From positions 62,001 to 126,000 of the forward strand of contig NZ_SMCV01000006.1 of the NCBI RefSeq assembly GCF_004342285.1: a stretch of DNA of 64,000 nt, read 5' to 3'. Below are positions 31,707-54,911 of this stretch, piece after piece (the first letter of the stretch is position 1; every line of letters begins with the position of its first letter). A program made the translations under genes and the position numbers. The notes under the pieces are model-generated. The model searched no databases. It worked only from the letters and a program-made list of their open reading frames with translations, and had not been told where the DNA came from. The DNA is from Klebsiella sp. BIGb0138 (GTDB lineage Bacteria > Pseudomonadota > Gammaproteobacteria > Enterobacterales > Enterobacteriaceae).

Positions 31707-31771
31707 GGGGGTTATTCCTTATCTATCTAATCGTTGATTAATCTGGAACCTGTCCCATTGCACTCTTTGCC

Positions 31772-31890
31772 CGTCATACTTCGGATTGTCTCATTGTTGG
31801 CTTCTCGTCCTCCCCCCAGTCACAGAGTTAACTATGCTCCCGGGGATTCCGACGCTTGCCGCCGCGATACAAGCCGAATTATTTAGGGCT
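31772..31890. repeat. Degenerate ERIC repeat between pdhR and aceE
   Basis: The core CCCCCCAGTCAC then TATGCTCCCGGGGATTC, followed by GCTTGCCGCC and CGAATTATTTAGGG, aligns with the ERIC consensus and with the copy before lpd. The left side is more diverged (TTGTTGGCTTCTCG in place of the usual CGTTGGCTGCGCTCG). It lies inside the pdh operon and would be transcribed. Confidence 0.75.
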
Positions 31891-31954
31891 GCTGAAACTA
31901 AAAGCGCAATAAGACAGGTTCTGCGTTTAGTTGCCGCGCTCTAAAAAATGGCGC

Positions 31955-44409: not shown

Positions 44410-45453
44410 TTACAGGCTATTGAACACGCGGTTCTCTTGTTCCTGTACGCGAATAAAGGTCGTGCGTTTGGTTAGCTCTTTCAGACGAGACGCGCCCACA
44501 TAGGTGCAGGCAGAACGCAGGCCGCCGAGAATATCACGGGCGGTATTTTCCACCGGGCCGCGCAGAGGCAGCTTAACGGTTTTACCTTCCGTCGCGCGGT
44601 ACTGCGCCACGCCGCCAACGTGACGCGTCATCGCTGATTCAGAACTCATGCCGTAGAACAGCATGAATTTCTCGCCGTTTTCTTCAACGACGGTACCACC
44701 GCTCTCTTCATGACCCGCCAGCATTCCGCCCAGCATGACGAAATCAGCGCCGCCGCCGAAGGCTTTCGCCACATCGCCCGGCATGGTACAGCCGCCATCG
44801 CTGACGATCTGCCCGCCCAGGCCGTGCGCCGCATCGGCACATTCGATCACGGCGGAGAGCTGCGGATAGCCGACGCCGGTCTTCACGCGGGTGGTGCACA
44901 CGGACCCCGGGCCGATGCCCACTTTCACAATATCGGCACCGGACAGAATCAGTTCTTCGCACATTTCGCCGGTGACGACGTTACCCGCACAGATGGTTTT
45001 CTGCGGCCAAGCTTCGCGCGCTTTGGCGACAAACTGGACAAAGTGTTCAGAATAACCATTCGCCACGTCGATACAGACGAAGTTGAGCTGCGGGTTCTGA
45101 GTGAGGATCTGTTTGGTTTTTTCGAAATCCACATCAGAAGTCCCGGTGGACACCATAACGTATTTCAGCACATCAGCAGAAACTGACTGGACAAAACCCT
45201 GCCACTCTTCAACGCTATAGTGTTTGTGAACCGCGGTCAGAATACCGAATGAGGCCAGCGCCTTCGCCATGCCAAAGGTACCAACGGTATCCATGTTGGC
45301 AGCGATGATCGGCACGCCAGACCAGGACTGAGCAGAATGTTTAAAAGTGAATTCACGTTCCAGCTGAACATCAGAACGGCTTTTGAGGGTAGAGCGTTTT
45401 GGGCGGATAAGAACGTCTTTAAAACCAAGCTTCAGATCTTCTTCGATACGCAT
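44410..45453 (-). CDS. guaC: GMP reductase
   Basis: GuaC converts GMP to IMP with NADPH and balances A and G nucleotides. It belongs to the IMPDH/GMPR barrel family, with the catalytic cysteine loop [11 protein letters not shown] and [32 protein letters not shown] 45453 ([11 protein letters not shown]) has AGGAA upstream and gives 347 residues. An in-frame reading to 45513 is unsupported. Confidence 0.97.
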
Positions 45454-45508
45454 GTGCGAATTCCTGGGGTTAATTGCATTATTGTGAGAGCACAACTCCG
45501 GTGACGTT

Positions 45509-45536
45509 ATCATACGCGCGAATCAGGGCTGCGCAA
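45509..45536 (-). promoter_or_regulatory. Candidate guaC promoter
   Basis: On the minus strand TTGCGC (45536-45531) and TATGAT (45514-45509) have a 16-base spacer and predict a leader of about 50 bases. This puts the guaC transcript clear of the structured DNA nearer coaE. Confidence 0.45.
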
Positions 45537-45675
45537 GACTGCGATTTTCACTTTTTTTACGCTACAATCGTATAAATTTACCTGGTGAACAGCGAATAGC
45601 GCGCTTGCGATAATCACTGTCCAGCGCATTATTTTTAACTACTTGATTTATATATACAAAACAATCCAGTCTATA

Positions 45676-45754
45676 TTGTGAGGGCCGTTCGTTGGCCCGA
45701 GACAGCCTTGATGAGGCATCGCTCACAAGGCCAGGGCGCGGGTGAATAACGAAC
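45676..45754 (+). ncRNA. Predicted three-way-junction RNA with pseudoknot in the coaE leader
   Basis: The closing stem TTGTGAG (45676-45682) with CTCACAA (45722-45728) encloses GGCC/GGCC (45683-45686 with 45694-45697, loop GTTCGTT) and GCCT/AGGC (45705-45708 with 45714-45717). The loop GTTCGTT is exactly complementary to AACGAAC at 45748-45754, a possible 7-bp pseudoknot. GCCTTG (45705-45710) can instead pair with CAAGGC (45726-45731), which would break the closing stem. I know no RNA family with this shape. The start of coaE is 46 bases further on. Confidence 0.45.
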
Positions 45755-45800
45755 TTCTCTGCAGCGTAATGTGTATATAGTCAGTTCAGGATCGGAAAGC

Positions 45801-46421
45801 ATGAGGTATACGGTAGCGTTAACGGGCGGCATCGGCAGTGGTAAAAGCACCGTGGCTGATGCATTTTCTCACCTTGGGGTTAACGTTATCGACGCAGACA
45901 TTATCGCCCGTCAGGTCGTCGAACCCGGCACTCCCGCCCTGCAGGCCATTGCCGCGCATTTTGGTTCGCTGACGATCAATGATGACGGCACGCTGAACCG
46001 CCGCGCGTTGCGGGAAAAAATCTTTGCGCATCCTGAGGATAAAGCCTGGCTTAATGCGCTGCTGCATCCGCTCATCCAGCAGGAAACGCGCAGACAAATG
46101 CAGGCCTCTCGCTCGCCTTATCTCCTCTGGGTGGTCCCGTTGCTGGTTGAAAACCACCTGGCCGCCAACGCTGACCGCGTGCTGGTCGTCGATGTTCCCA
46201 CAGAAACTCAGATCGCGCGTACGATGCTTCGCGATCGGGTCAGCCGTGAACATGCCGAACATATTCTTGCCGCCCAGGCGACGCGTGAACAGCGCCTCGC
46301 CGTTGCGGATGATGTTATTGAAAACATGGGCCCGCCGGATGCCATCGCAGCGGACGTCGCCCGCCTGCACGAAAAGTATCTTATGCTGGCATCGCAGGCC
46401 GCCTCACAGGAAAAATCGTAA
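45801..46421 (+). CDS. coaE: Dephospho-CoA kinase
   Basis: CoaE phosphorylates dephospho-CoA in the last step of coenzyme A synthesis. The P-loop [17 protein letters not shown] is at the N-terminus, followed by the substrate segment [16 protein letters not shown] and [11 protein letters not shown] 45801 ([10 protein letters not shown]) gives 206 residues as in E. coli; a longer in-frame ATG at 45771 is unlikely. The stop overlaps the zapD start by one base (TAATG). Confidence 0.96.
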
Positions 46422-47848: not shown

Positions 47849-47865
47849 TGTGTTAATTCCATAAA

Positions 47866-47889
47866 AAAGGCGCAGATATCTGCGCCTTT
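47866..47889 (-). terminator. secA terminator
   Basis: A perfectly self-complementary 24-bp sequence, built on AAAGGCGCAGA and its complement TCTGCGCCTTT, lies 17 bases after the secA stop and is followed by a T run on the minus strand. Confidence 0.85.
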
Positions 47890-47906
47890 AGTTTTATTCT
47901 CTGAGC

Positions 47907-50612
47907 TTAACTCAGACGACCATGGCACTGTTTGTATTTTTTACCAGAACCACACGGGCACGGATCGTTCCGGCCGACCTTGCGCTCGCCCGTCTCCTCA
48001 GCCAGTGCGGCGGCGGCGGCGGTCTCGTCATCCTGATGGCTAAGCTGCTGCATCTGCGCCAGACGCTCGGCTTCTTCGCGACGCTGCTGCTCCATCGCCT
48101 CCACTTCTTCCGGCATCCGCACCTGAACCTTGCTCAGGGTGCTGATCACTTCATACTTCAGTGATTCCAGCATCGCGGCAAACATGGAGAACGATTCACG
48201 CTTATATTCCTGCTTCGGATCTTTCTGCGCATAACCGCGCAGATGGATACCCTGGCGCAGATAGTCCATCGCCGCCAGATGCTCTTTCCACAGAGAATCG
48301 AGGGTCTGCAGCATCACGCCCTTCTCGAAATGACGCATCATTTCGGCACCGACCACCTCTTCCTTACGCTGGTAGGTTTCAATCGCGCTCTGCAGAATAC
48401 GTTCGCGCAGCGTCTCTTCATGCAGCTCAGGCTCTTTATCCAGCCACTCTTTCAGCGGCAGATCAAGATCGAAGTCGTTTTTCAGACGTTCCTGCAGGCC
48501 TTCCACATCCCACATTTCTTCCAGCGACTGCGGCGGAATATGCGCGTCGATAGTCGCTTTGAACACGTCTTCACGGATGCTGTTGATGGTTTCGCTCACG
48601 TCAGAAACATCCAGCAGCTCGTTACGCTGGCTATAGATCGCCCGGCGCTGATCGTTGGCAACATCGTCATATTCCAGCAGCTGCTTACGAATATCGAAGT
48701 TGCGGCTTTCCACTTTGCGCTGTGCGTTAGCAATCGCTTTGGTCACCCATGGGTGCTCAATCGCTTCGCCTGGCTTCATACCCAGCTTACGCATCATGCC
48801 GGAGACGCGATCGGAGGCAAAGATACGCATCAGGGCATCTTCCATCGACAGGTAGAAGCGCGAAGAACCGGCATCCCCCTGACGACCGGAACGGCCGCGC
48901 AGCTGGTTATCAATACGACGGGATTCATGACGCTCGGTGCCGATAATGTGCAGACCGCCCGCCGCCAGAACGGCATCATGACGAACCTGCCAGTCGGCTT
49001 TAATCTGTTCGATTTGCTCTGGCGTCGGATCTTCCAGCGCCGCGACCTCTGCCTGCCAGCTACCGCCGAGCATAATATCGGTACCACGACCGGCCATGTT
49101 GGTGGCGATGGTCACCGCCGACGGATAGCCCGCCTGGGCGACAATATCCGCTTCGCTGGCGTGGAACTTAGCGTTCAGAACGTTGTGCTTGATGCCGGCT
49201 TTCGTCAGCTCATGAGAAACCACTTCTGATTTTTCGATCGAAATGGTACCCACCAGAACCGGCTGGCCTGCGGCGGTACGCTCTTTAATATCTTCGATAA
49301 TCGCCTGAATTTTTTCCGCTTCGGTCATATAGACCAGATCCGCCATGTCCTTACGGATCATCGGACGGTTGGTCGGGACAACCACGGTATCCAGCTTGTA
49401 GATGGAGCTAAATTCGAAGGCTTCGGTATCCGCCGTACCCGTCATCCCCGCCAGCTTCTCGTACAGACGGAAGTAGTTCTGGAAGGTGATAGAGGCCAAC
49501 GTCTGGTTCTCGTTCTGGATATCCACGCCTTCCTTCGCTTCCACGGCCTGATGCAGACCATCGGACCAGCGGCGCCCCTGCATGGTACGACCGGTGTGCT
49601 CATCGACGATAATGACTTCGCCGTCTTTGACGATGTAGTCGACGTCGCGGGTGAACAGCACGTGCGCACGCAGCGCTGCGGTCACGTGGTGCATCAGCAT
49701 AATATTGGACGGTGAATACAGAGATTCCCCTTCCTCCATAATACCTTCCTGTACCAGCAGCTCTTCGATCAGCACCAGGCCGCGTTCGGTCAGGTTAACC
49801 TGACGCGCCTTCTCATCGACGGAGAAGTGGCCTTCACCGGTAAAGGTATCGGAGTCTTCTTTATCCTGGCGCACCAGGTGCGGGATAATTTTGTTTACGC
49901 GCTTGTACATCTCCGAGCTGTCTTCTGCCGGACCGGAAATGATCAGCGGGGTACGCGCTTCATCGATCAGGATGGAGTCGACCTCATCCACCAGCGCGTA
50001 GTGCAGTTTGCGCTGAACGCGCTCTTCCGGGCTAAACGCCATGTTGTCGCGCAGGTAGTCGAAACCGTATTCGTTGTTAGTGCCGTAGGTAATGTCCGCA
50101 CCGTAAGCTTCGCGTTTCGCTGGAGCAGGCAGGCCGGACATGTTGATACCCACCGTCATACCGAGGAACTCGAACAGCGGACGGTTGTTTTCCGCATCAC
50201 GCTGCGCCAGGTAGTCGTTGACGGTCACCACGTGAACGCCTTTACCCGACAGCGCGTTCAGATACGCCGGCAGCGTGGCGGTCAGGGTTTTACCTTCACC
50301 GGTACGCATTTCCGCGATGCAACGCTCGTTGAGCACCATACCGCCCAGCAGCTGCACATCGAAGTGGCGCATGCCGAATACGCGTTTACTCGCCTCACGA
50401 ACCACCGCAAAGGCTTCCGGGATCAGGCTTTCTACGCTTTCGCCTTTCTCCAGACGCGCGCGGAACTCGGCGGTTTTGCCTTTCAGCTCCTCATCGGAGA
50501 GCTTTTCCAGCGCCGGTTCCATGGCGTTGATCACGCCAACGGTTTTGCGCATGCGGCGCAGAGTACGATCGTTACGACTACCGAAAACTTTAGTTAATAA
50601 TTTGATTAGCAT
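47907..50612 (-). CDS. secA: Preprotein translocase ATPase SecA
   Basis: SecA drives protein export through SecYEG. The first nucleotide-binding fold has Walker [17 protein letters not shown] and the [15 protein letters not shown] segment; the second holds [13 protein letters not shown]. The C-terminal zinc tail [18 protein letters not shown] binds SecB and phospholipids. The length is 901 residues, as in E. coli. It follows secM by 59 bases; that spacer pairs around the secA ribosome binding site in E. coli. Confidence 0.98.
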
Positions 50613-52434: not shown

Positions 52435-53586
52435 TTAATCAGCTTGCTTACGCAGGAAGGCTGGGATATCCAGATAATCCGGCTCTTTCGCGGTTTGCGG
52501 CGTATTGTCGTTCACCACTTTCGCGACCGGTTTCTGCTCTTGAGTCAATGGAGCCATACCGTGTTGCTGGTAGCGATCCATCACCGGCTGCTGAACCTGT
52601 TTGTTGGTCACCAGGGTAATTTCCGGACGTTTGTCCATACCGATACCGGTAGCCACAACGGTTACACGCAGTTCATCATTCATATCCGGGTCAAGGGAGG
52701 TACCGATAACCACGGTGGCGTTATCCGATGCGAAAGCACGAATAGTATTACCCACGGTTTCGAACTCATCCAGACGCAGGTCGAAGCCCGCGGTGATGTT
52801 GACCAGAACGCCGCGCGCGCCGGACAGATCGATATCTTCCAGCAGCGGAGAAGAGATCGCCATTTCAGCCGCTTCTTCCGCACGGTCTTCACCGCTCGCC
52901 ACGCCGGAGCCCATCATCGCATAGCCCATTTCGGACATCACGGTGCGCACATCCGCAAAGTCGACGTTCATCAGACCCGGACGGGTAATCAGTTCGGCGA
53001 TCCCCTGTACCGCGCCTTTCAGCACATCGTTTGCCGCGCCGAAGGCGTCCAGCAGAGAAATGCCACGACCCAGAACTTTCAGCAGCTTGTCGTTCGGAAT
53101 GGTGATCAGCGAATCCACATGCTTGGACAGCTCAGTGATCCCCTGTTCGGCGAACGCCATGCGCTTTTTGCCTTCAAAATTAAACGGTTTGGTGACAACA
53201 GCCACGGTCAGGATACCCAGATCCTTCGCGACTTCCGCCACCACCGGCGCGGCACCGGTACCGGTACCGCCGCCCATACCTGCCGCGATAAACACCATGT
53301 CTGCACCATCAAGAGCAGCACGCAGCGCTTCACGGTCTTCGTCAGCCGCATTGCGACCCACTTCCGGGTTTGCACCGGCCCCCAGACCTTTGGTAATACC
53401 GCTACCGATCTGAATAGTCTGGCCAACAGCCGTTTTACGCAGCGCCTGCGCGTCGGTGTTCACCGCGAAGAATTCAACGCCCTCGATGCGCTCGCGCACC
53501 ATGTGTTCAACGGCATTACCGCCGCCGCCACCGACGCCGATGACTTTAATCACCGCGTCGTTGGTCAGTTCCATAGGTTCAAACAT
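52435..53586 (-). CDS. ftsZ: Cell division protein FtsZ
   Basis: FtsZ is the tubulin-like GTPase of the division ring. It has [12 protein letters not shown] at the N-terminus, the GTP signature [20 protein letters not shown], and the C-terminal [12 protein letters not shown] that binds FtsA, ZipA and ZapD. The length is 383 residues, as in E. coli. It follows ftsA by 62 bases. Confidence 0.98.
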
Positions 53587-53648
53587 AGTTTCTCTCCGTT
53601 TTGTGCCTGTCGCCTGAGAACGCTAATTTTCTGCGTTCTCTTAAAAAA

Positions 53649-54911
53649 TTAAAACTCTTTTCGCAGCCAGCTATTAAGTCGCTTAATCCACGAGCCAACT
53701 GATGCCGTTACACGTTTTTCCACTTCAGCTTCACCACTGAGATGAGATTCCTTCCCGTAGTGCAGCAACCCAACCGCCGTCGAATAATACGGCTCCTGGG
53801 CATAATCCGTTAAGCCGGTAATATTCAGCGGCGCGCCAATACGCACCTGCGTATGGAACACGCGCTGAGCGCAGGCGGCAAGACCTTCGATTTGCGCGGC
53901 GCCGCCCGTTAAAACAATCCCCGCCGCCAGGTGGTGTTTCACCCCTTGCTGGCGAAGCTGCTCCTGCAGTTGCAGGATCTCTTCATTCACCAGGTTGAGC
54001 AGCTCGGTATAACGCGGCTCAATCACCTCTGCCAGCGTCTGGCGCTGCAGGCTGCGCGGCGGACGCCCGCCGACGCTCGGCACTTCGACGTTTTCGTCTT
54101 TGCCGACAATGGAACCCAGCGCGCAACCGTGGCGTACCTTAATCGCTTCGGCATCGCTCGGCGGCGTCCCGAAAGCGTAAGCGATATCGCTGGTCACCAC
54201 GTTGCCCGCGTAGGGGATCACTTTGGTATGACGCAGCGCACCGCCGGTATAAACGGCGATATCCATTGTACCACCGCCGATGTCCACCACGCAGACGCCC
54301 AGTTCACGTTCATCTTCCGTCAACACGGAATAACTGGCGGCTAAACCGGCGAAAATGAGTTGGTCCACTTTCAGACCGCAACGTTCCACCGCTTTAACAA
54401 TATTTTTCGCCATATCGTTATGGCAGGTAATCAGGTGCACTTTTGCCTGCATACGCACGCCGGACAGCCCCACCGGGTTTTTAATCCCTTCCTGGTAGTC
54501 GATGGCGTACTCCTGCGGAATCACGTGCAGGACGCGATGTTCATCGCGTACGCGAACCGACTTCGCGGTATGCACCACGTTCTCGACGTCGTCCAGCGTC
54601 ACTTCTTCTTCTGAAATCGGCACCATACCAATTTCATTTTGACAGCTAATATGTTTACCTGAAAGCGCCAGATACACTGACGAAATCTGGCAATCCGCCA
54701 TCAGTTCGGCCTGGTCAATGGCGCGCTGTACGCATTTCACCACGGATTCCAGATCGTTAACCCCGCCTTTATCCATACCACGCGACGGGCAACTGCCCAC
54801 GCCAATGATATTGACCACGCCGTCGGGCAGAACTTCCCCTACTAAAGCGGCAACCTTCGCGGTGCCAATCTCCAGTCCAACTACCAGTTTTCTGTCCGTC
54901 GCCTTGATCAT
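53649..54911 (-). CDS. ftsA: Cell division protein FtsA
   Basis: FtsA is an actin-like ATPase that ties FtsZ to the membrane and recruits later divisome proteins. Visible blocks are [32 protein letters not shown] and [14 protein letters not shown]. The C-terminal amphipathic helix ([14 protein letters not shown]) anchors it to the membrane. The length is 420 residues. It overlaps ftsQ by four bases. Confidence 0.98.

Follow-up and report, generated by a model that had tools for sequence, protein, structure and literature searches.

In the tisB mRNA of Escherichia coli, a case of ribosome standby, a single-stranded segment approximately 100 nucleotides (nt) upstream and structure at the 5′ end are both needed for ribosome loading, and this structure was defined by arm-breaking and matched mutations (PMC7708055). 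As portrayed there, the tisB leader combines a pseudoknot with a sequestered ribosome site (PMC7708055), whereas the coaE leader considered here would use a nested long-range helix to juxtapose segments, and its AGGA is predicted to be open. We regard ribosome-standby leaders as the nearest working analogy, with which the anatomy of the coaE leader is compatible. The riboswitches and protein-controlled leaders of Rfam 15 resemble it in being structured RNA ahead of a biosynthetic gene; unlike them, the coaE leader has neither an Rfam match nor a conserved core, and was found in one genus and at one locus among the genomes searched.

The coaE gene product carries out the last step of coenzyme A (CoA) synthesis and is essential in E. 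coli. The E. coli coaE promoter is reported as TTGTCT-18-CATAAA (PMC3946193), and we located it in the E. coli sequence. In Klebsiella aerogenes, one study describes a rhythmic coaE promoter reporter and coaE mRNA levels without a difference between growth phases (PMC10356819). The short coaE leaders of E. coli and related bacteria are like the one studied here in that the E. coli gene neighbours are the same and a TAAC...TTGAT segment lies 60–61 nt after AATTTACC. They differ from it in that the motif lies 42–46 nt from the ATG (in 23 of 32 motif-bearing leaders), that they have no P1 (the long-range helix described below), and that the covariance model of the element (see below) finds none of them. 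Comparison of sequences within the genus indicates that the coaE leader of Klebsiella and Raoultella appears to carry an RNA stem maintained by evolution, which is larger than the fold noticed in an initial annotation of the locus.

Locus and candidate promoters

In the window (the whole 64,000-nt stretch of Klebsiella sp. BIGb0138 DNA that was analysed), guaC and coaE are divergent; E. coli K-12 has the same gene order, with a shorter stretch ahead of coaE. An orthologue of coaE is present in all 20 genomes of the Klebsiella/Raoultella genus that were examined, and the same leaders are seen by eye on contigs of R. planticola, R. ornithinolytica, K. pneumoniae, K. oxytoca, and others. Of the two candidate promoters (Table 1), the one that corresponds to the E. 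coli promoter is not listed by the consensus promoter scan, and the other is, as judged by eye, not conserved in K. pneumoniae. If either is used, the whole leader element would lie inside the mRNA.

Table 1. Features of the coaE leader and other RNA family matches in the window (positions are those of the window).
Feature	Position	Strand	Basis or remark
Candidate coaE promoter, TTCACT-18-TATAAA	45547–45576	+	Counterpart of E. coli coaE promoter; putative start at ~45583
Second promoter-like site, TGAACA-17-GATAAT	45586–45614	+	Consensus scan 9/12; upstream of P1
U-rich TTTTTAAC and TAACTACTTGAT motif	45632–45648	+	Its TTGAT end belongs to the P1 5′ arm
P1 5′ arm (TTGATTTATATATACA, one U bulged)	45643–45658	+	RNAalifold and comparative tests
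P1 3′ arm (TGTGTATATAGTCAG)	45770–45784	+	RNAalifold and comparative tests
Putatively looped-out, fast-evolving interior	45659–45769	+	Includes closing stem, hairpins, and pseudoknot partner of the compact fold
Inner hairpin, 5′ arm (TTCGTTGG)	45688–45695	+	Occupies bases of the compact fold's pseudoknot
Inner hairpin, 3′ arm (TTGATGAG)	45708–45715	+	Genus comparison
Compact fold of the initial annotation	45676–45754	+	Exists in the sequence; comparison support weak at most
Closing stem, TTGTGAG/CTCACAA	45676–45682/45722–45728		7 bp, exact
First hairpin, GGCC/GGCC	45683–45686/45694–45697		Exact; loop GTTCGTT, 45687–45693
Second hairpin, GCCT/AGGC	45705–45708/45714–45717		Exact
Pseudoknot, GTTCGTT/AACGAAC	45687–45693/45748–45754		7 bp, exact
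Alternative pairing, GCCTTG/CAAGGC	45705–45710/45726–45731		6 bp, exact
Shine–Dalgarno AGGA	45788–45791	+	Read directly; 3 nt after P1; predicted unpaired 0.91–0.98
coaE (dephospho-CoA kinase)	45801–46421	+	ORF; an upstream in-frame GTG at 45771 opens the listed ORF
tp2 Rfam match	31711–31950	+	82.8 bits; between minus-strand aceE-like and pdhR-like ORFs
STnc40 sRNA match	47863–47931	−	Just upstream of mutT-like minus-strand start; overlaps secA end
PssrA Rfam match ('plasmid-encoded Shigella sRNA A')	53578–53669	−	101.4 bits; junction of two minus-strand chromosomal ORFs, ftsA-like and ftsZ-like; 9-nt overlap with ftsZ start

An added segment in the leader

The pattern YAANNNN[TC]TGAT occurs in 32 of the 40 nearest leaders from other genera and in 3 of 40 more distant ones. 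In the 32 motif-bearing leaders, the motif precedes the ATG by 42–46 nt (23 leaders), by 68–71 nt (4 leaders), or by 131–168 nt (5 leaders, each with its own additions). In the window, it stands 164 nt ahead of the ATG, and the difference from the 42–46 nt seen elsewhere points to the addition of approximately 120 nt in this genus; the other Enterobacteriaceae examined are without it. In each of the 32 leaders, the motif lies 60–61 nt past AATTTACC. Across positions 45576–45648 and loci L091–L130, the spacing from AATTTACC to TAACCNNTTGAT is fixed while the sequence between them varies, which suggests a constraint at the DNA level. The TAACCNNTTGAT motif also fits the core consensus of IHF.

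Several other leaders have peculiarities of their own. Six loci from other genera, L116, L122, L123, L125, L126, and L160, also have long additions, each its own, at this position in the coaE leader; those of L116, L122, and L123 are predicted to be closed by stems that start at the TGAT motif, and L160 seems by eye to contain an ERIC-like repeat. The L087 leader (L087:1344–1509), one of the two that have no P1 3′ arm, has a different predicted domain, closed by GATTCAC/GTGAATC. At positions 845–889 of L090, E. coli annotation places a small protein of 14 amino acids, YacM, antisense across the TAACCNNTTGAT motif; inspection by eye gave no obvious conserved YacM frame in Klebsiella. We also considered a family-wide hairpin in which TTGAT would pair with a nearby ATCAA and of which P1 would be a version with a grown loop. 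This proposal was unconvincing: the motif is present in 35 of 80 leaders, the summed helix length is 182 versus 161.8 (sd 14.7) in shuffled sequences, and helices of at least 8 bp number 12 versus 5.3, with related species kept in the comparison.

Anatomy and predicted folding of P1

P1 comprises 15 pairs and one bulged U, encloses the region of the compact fold, and stops 3 nt short of the Shine–Dalgarno sequence. In the window, UUGAUU-u-AUAUAUACA (45643–45658) pairs with UGUGUAUAUAGUCAG (45770–45784). In much of the oxytoca group, the arms are ACAUGYGCA/UGUGCAUGU; the pneumoniae group has UUGCUUG-AUU/AAU-a-CGAGCAA. P1 is AU-rich in Raoultella, is interrupted in L073 and L084, and in L073 exists as a weak version only (−6.3 kcal/mol).

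Thermodynamic prediction of P1 depends on the context folded. For the window, its predicted probability is 0.98 for the leader alone and 0.02, 0.10, and 0.46 in three longer contexts. When 40 nt of coaE are included, P1 is predicted with high probability in five of eight oxytoca-side leaders and with low probability in most others, and with coding sequence the values range from 0 to 1 between species. In the window taken alone, the 11-bp stem is unremarkable, as a like stem occurs in 106 of 1000 shuffles.

Comparative support for P1

The comparison set consisted of the coaE leaders of 20 Klebsiella and Raoultella species. RNAalifold applied to these 20 leaders gives P1 unprompted, an outer helix that the initial annotation does not contain. 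The helix is kept in 18 of the 20 genus members; L082 and L087 are without the 3′ arm and for that reason were omitted from the 18-leader tests, although they were included in the RNAalifold run and in the pair counts with plain shuffles.

Counted over 13 pairs, 92.9 per cent of 241 cells of P1 are paired and 22 cells are changed on both sides. The covariation score is 0.356, compared with 0.244 in shuffles (0/500 as high) and at most 0.151 when the arms are slid. In this plain-shuffle control, two of five measures fail to exceed the shuffles: pairs changed on both sides number 5 versus 3.9 shuffled (141/500), and further pair types 13 versus 14.0 (478/500). An 11-pair register has 91 per cent of its cells paired, with clade-specific compensations. 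In a census of stems of at least 9 bp in the 18 leaders, 27 stems were recovered, and the best 11 are all P1 (90–92 per cent paired).

We compared P1 with 600 tree-based null alignments. In 300 of them, the observed substitutions were placed uniformly; in the other 300, the sites differed in rate as observed. No null alignment contained a stem of at least 9 bp with at least 88 per cent of cells paired and at least 20 double-changed cells, which are the thresholds set by P1. In the rate-aware null, the paired fraction alone has a 95th percentile of 0.89 and a maximum of 0.99 and is therefore insufficient, so that the double changes carry the argument for P1. A tree-aware score conditioned on the window gives z = 2.61 (1/400), and P1 ranks first or second by this score with the window, L083, L079, or L071 as reference. 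When 5′ and 3′ arms were exchanged among species, own arms had a mean of −12.4 kcal/mol versus −9.0 kcal/mol for swapped arms, and none of 20,000 permutations, in which relatedness is ignored, did equally well. In the Raoultella, pneumoniae, and oxytoca groups, the best-fitting arms came from the same clade.

An R-scape-style test of all pairs, which covered 18 leaders with few independent events, yielded no significant base pair; the best, 45673–45723, lies outside P1 (E values of 0.5 and 0.39 in two runs). The leader has one feature expected of a structured cis-acting 5′ leader, a helix supported by compensatory changes in the sense RNA, with no single pair significant. The inner arms of P1 differ by 0.371 pairwise, near the rate of 0.408 at 4-fold-degenerate sites of coaE, yet remain paired, which argues that the pairing, not a binding pocket, has been kept.

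A second helix, the inner hairpin, is supported across the genus by the same kind of comparison, and we keep it as secondary to P1. It has 88 per cent of its cells paired in 17 other leaders and a window-conditioned tree-aware z of 2.90 (1/400), and it is the top-scoring helix with L069, L071, and L083 as references, but not with L079. It is rich in G-U pairs and its predicted probability in the window is 0.0.

Strand asymmetry of the pairing

Selection on the sense RNA would be expected to leave G-U, not A-C, in imperfect cells. The ratio of G-U to A-C cells is 57:2 in P1 as a whole, 21:2 in the nine inner pairs of P1, and 44:3 in the inner hairpin, versus 25:18 in the closing stem of the compact fold, 38:20 in its pseudoknot, and 10:12 in the alternative pairing. 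Because P1 and the inner hairpin had been picked with G-U pairs counted, the census was repeated with Watson–Crick pairs only and on the reverse complement. In the strand-blind, Watson–Crick-only census, P1 ranks first among 46 stems (85 per cent paired, 28 double cells), and it tops both Watson–Crick censuses. With G-U allowed and stems of at least 9 bp, P1 heads the sense census with 92 per cent of cells paired and also the antisense census, where it reaches 75 per cent. Parsimony places in P1 five double Watson–Crick replacements, seven changes to G-U and five back, two changes to A-C, and eight changes to other mismatches, some of which stem, as judged by eye, from a one-nucleotide bulge in the pneumoniae group.

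The interior and the compact fold

The interior enclosed by P1 has a mean pairwise difference of 0.450, compared with 0.408 at coaE 4-fold-degenerate sites, and only six of its positions are invariant in the 18 leaders. By both measures, the highly conserved aptamer core that is expected of a riboswitch was not found. The interior thus evolves neutrally, and an aptamer is unlikely.

Within this interior, the initial annotation had proposed a compact fold, made of a closing stem around two hairpins and a pseudoknot, together with an alternative pairing as the second state of a switch. All of these pairings are present, as located by script (Table 1). Two perfect stems of at least 7 bp arise likewise in 41 of 2000 dinucleotide shuffles of 45660–45770 (111 nt) and, by the same criterion, in 9 of 2000 shuffles of 45676–45754, the stretch that the annotation itself had chosen. 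Across 45583–45800, three such stems are observed, one of them formed by the P1 arms in a shifted register; 164 of 2000 shuffles contain as many. The proposed pairings exceed chance slightly, and other structure in the leader is better conserved. The stability of the region is ordinary (z = −0.92; 33 of 200 shuffles are as stable or more so), and the compact fold is not favoured in the predicted ensemble of 45583–45840 (258 nt), where the closing stem has a probability of 0.0 and the pseudoknot of 0.04–0.05; the alternative pairing is strongly preferred over the closing stem, with a predicted probability of 0.99–1.0.

When 17 other leaders were compared with the window as reference, the closing stem has 66 per cent of its cells paired and 41 of 81 changed cells still pair; the corresponding values are 66 per cent and 52 of 97 for the pseudoknot (in an 8-bp register) and 64 per cent and 31 of 67 for the alternative pairing. 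For all 23 window stems of at least 6 bp, on average 51 per cent of changed cells still pair. Compensatory-looking changes do exist in the stems of the compact fold, hardly more than in arbitrary stems. The tree-aware score conditioned on the window gives z = 1.78 for the closing stem and 1.68 for the pseudoknot (17/400 each) and 1.36 for the alternative pairing (42/400); an unplanned stem, 45687–45693/45741–45747, reaches 1/400 in this test, ahead of the closing stem and the pseudoknot.

Two less stringent controls give higher values. Over 20 leaders and against plain shuffles, which permute the 3′ letters and do not keep the relatedness of the leaders, the closing stem and hairpins (66.7 per cent of cells paired) have a covariation score of 0.319 versus 0.236 (1/500) and at most 0.128 in slid versions, and the pseudoknot (65.4 per cent paired) has 0.349 versus 0.230 (0/500) and at most 0.203 when slid. 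A looser tree-aware test, which favours any stem picked in the window because the window's own chosen pairs are allowed to vary, gives 1/1000 for the pseudoknot, 2/1000 for the inner hairpin, 5/1000 for P1, 13/1000 for the nine inner P1 pairs, 28/1000 for the second hairpin, 50/1000 for the closing stem, 65/1000 for the alternative pairing, and 125/1000 for the first hairpin.

We read the stems of the compact fold as weakly supported and do not call them conserved across the genus; they may be used in single species. Of the annotation's proposal of a structured leader with a two-state switch, the first part has gained evidence for a selected RNA structure, and the particular fold and switch are at best weakly supported.

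Distribution and database searches

A covariance model built from the 18 leaders matched those 18 among 119 genomes, with one copy each, before coaE; with strict filters, the other 86 genera searched gave no match. The L082 and L087 leaders scored 21.9 and 20.6 bits, respectively. BLAST of 45660–45785 against 392 genomes of the family returned the window's own copy only, with none in plasmids. A 391-nt query matches 5374 of 5426 E. coli genomes, none over more than 80 per cent of its length, and the best 10 matches cover the guaC side only.

A search of 45440–45830 with the 4227 models of Rfam 15, at E values up to 5, gave no match; no Rfam family covers the leader, in keeping with the initial annotation, which knew of no described RNA here. 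In eight related loci, Rfam models had no match in the leaders; elsewhere in these loci, STnc40 was found (in eight of eight), and L082 gave a single sub-threshold match to an snRNA, likewise outside the leader. The other RNA matches in the window are listed in Table 1. The position of the PssrA match suggests that this family may really describe an ftsZ leader, and the tp2 match, which spans 240 nt compared with the 114 positions of the model, likely has an insertion inside the element.

Among the matches listed in literature searches, none deals with a coaE leader RNA. The main texts of PMC10907235 and PMC7815308 do not mention coaE, and PMC9426594 mentions it once, as a gene deletion.

Interpretation

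Our preferred reading, to which we assign a rough probability of 0.43, is that a genus-specific addition to the leader is folded away by P1, and that the helix gives constitutive support to the translation of coaE and does not serve ligand sensing. An ancestor of Klebsiella and Raoultella would have gained the ~120 nt just past the U-rich TAACCNNTTGAT segment that is common to related genera, and the mRNA would fold this addition away through the long-range, 15-bp P1. With its 5′ arm beginning at the ancestral TTGAT and its 3′ arm ending 3 nt before the Shine–Dalgarno sequence, P1 would hold the upstream single-stranded U-rich segment beside the ribosome-binding site. The short leaders of other genera have this arrangement, and keeping it would support coaE translation. 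P1 would be a constitutive structural element, and we found no sign of ligand sensing. Sequence comparison supports the addition, P1 itself, compensation on the sense strand, the neutral interior, and restriction to the genus among the genomes searched; we infer the ancestral event, a transcription start upstream of the element, formation of P1 in the cell, and its translational role. It is more doubtful that P1 is a loop-out helix in the full sense of an RNA stem selected to hide an insertion, which would keep the ancestral ribosome-loading geometry while more than 100 nt drift freely.

The next candidate after the loop-out role would be a stem for RNase III or another processing enzyme that trims the coaE mRNA to a short leader. 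RNase III substrates typically have a long helix, and a long helix round a variable interior fits a processing stem; cutting would restore the short leader of the other genera. We consider this role unlikely, given that the helix is rich in AU or interrupted in some members of the genus and that E. coli and most relatives examined manage without P1.

About as likely is a DNA inverted repeat whose complementarity is kept up by template switching, or that serves as a binding site, and that was not selected as RNA. Mutation can homogenize inverted repeats, the outer TTGAT lies within the motif that resembles the IHF core, and the strand bias of P1 rests on few parsimony events, namely the seven changes to G-U and two to A-C. 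Such a repeat does not readily account for a helix that was selected strand-blind and yet pairs better in the sense than in the antisense direction once G-U is allowed, for the excess of G-U over A-C cells in P1 and the inner hairpin relative to the stems of the compact fold, or for arms that covary without conservation of their sequence.

The switch proposed in the initial annotation, a riboswitch or protein-controlled leader through which CoA or a division signal would regulate coaE, is marginally less probable than either of these. The leader is structured and precedes a biosynthetic gene, it allows mutually exclusive pairings to be drawn, and the stems of the compact fold exceed plain shuffles; the rhythmic K. 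aerogenes reporter (PMC10356819) fits additional control but does not require it. A ligand switch is nevertheless unlikely because we found no conserved core (the interior changes like 4-fold-degenerate sites), no clearly conserved alternative (the exclusive pairings are weakly conserved at most), and no terminator-like site in the scan; its confinement, among the genomes searched, to a single genus and a single locus and the lack of an Rfam match also count against it. We give equally little credence to P1 as a phylogenetic coincidence in a leader without selected structure, for which the few independent events, the non-significant all-pairs test, the two losses, and the shuffle measures that were not exceeded would speak, as against the null alignments and arm permutations, none of which equalled P1, the strand asymmetry, and the first or second rank of the helix from four reference species.

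The locus illustrates that a reading of one sequence can pick the wrong pairs, as the better-supported helix encloses those that had been noticed, and both comparison and the strand test were needed to separate P1 from them. If the loop-out role is true, it would give leaders a general way to accommodate insertions, and the interior would be raw material for new regulation. For the Klebsiella genus, a conserved helix that is absent from Rfam would offer a concrete site of post-transcriptional support or control of coaE.
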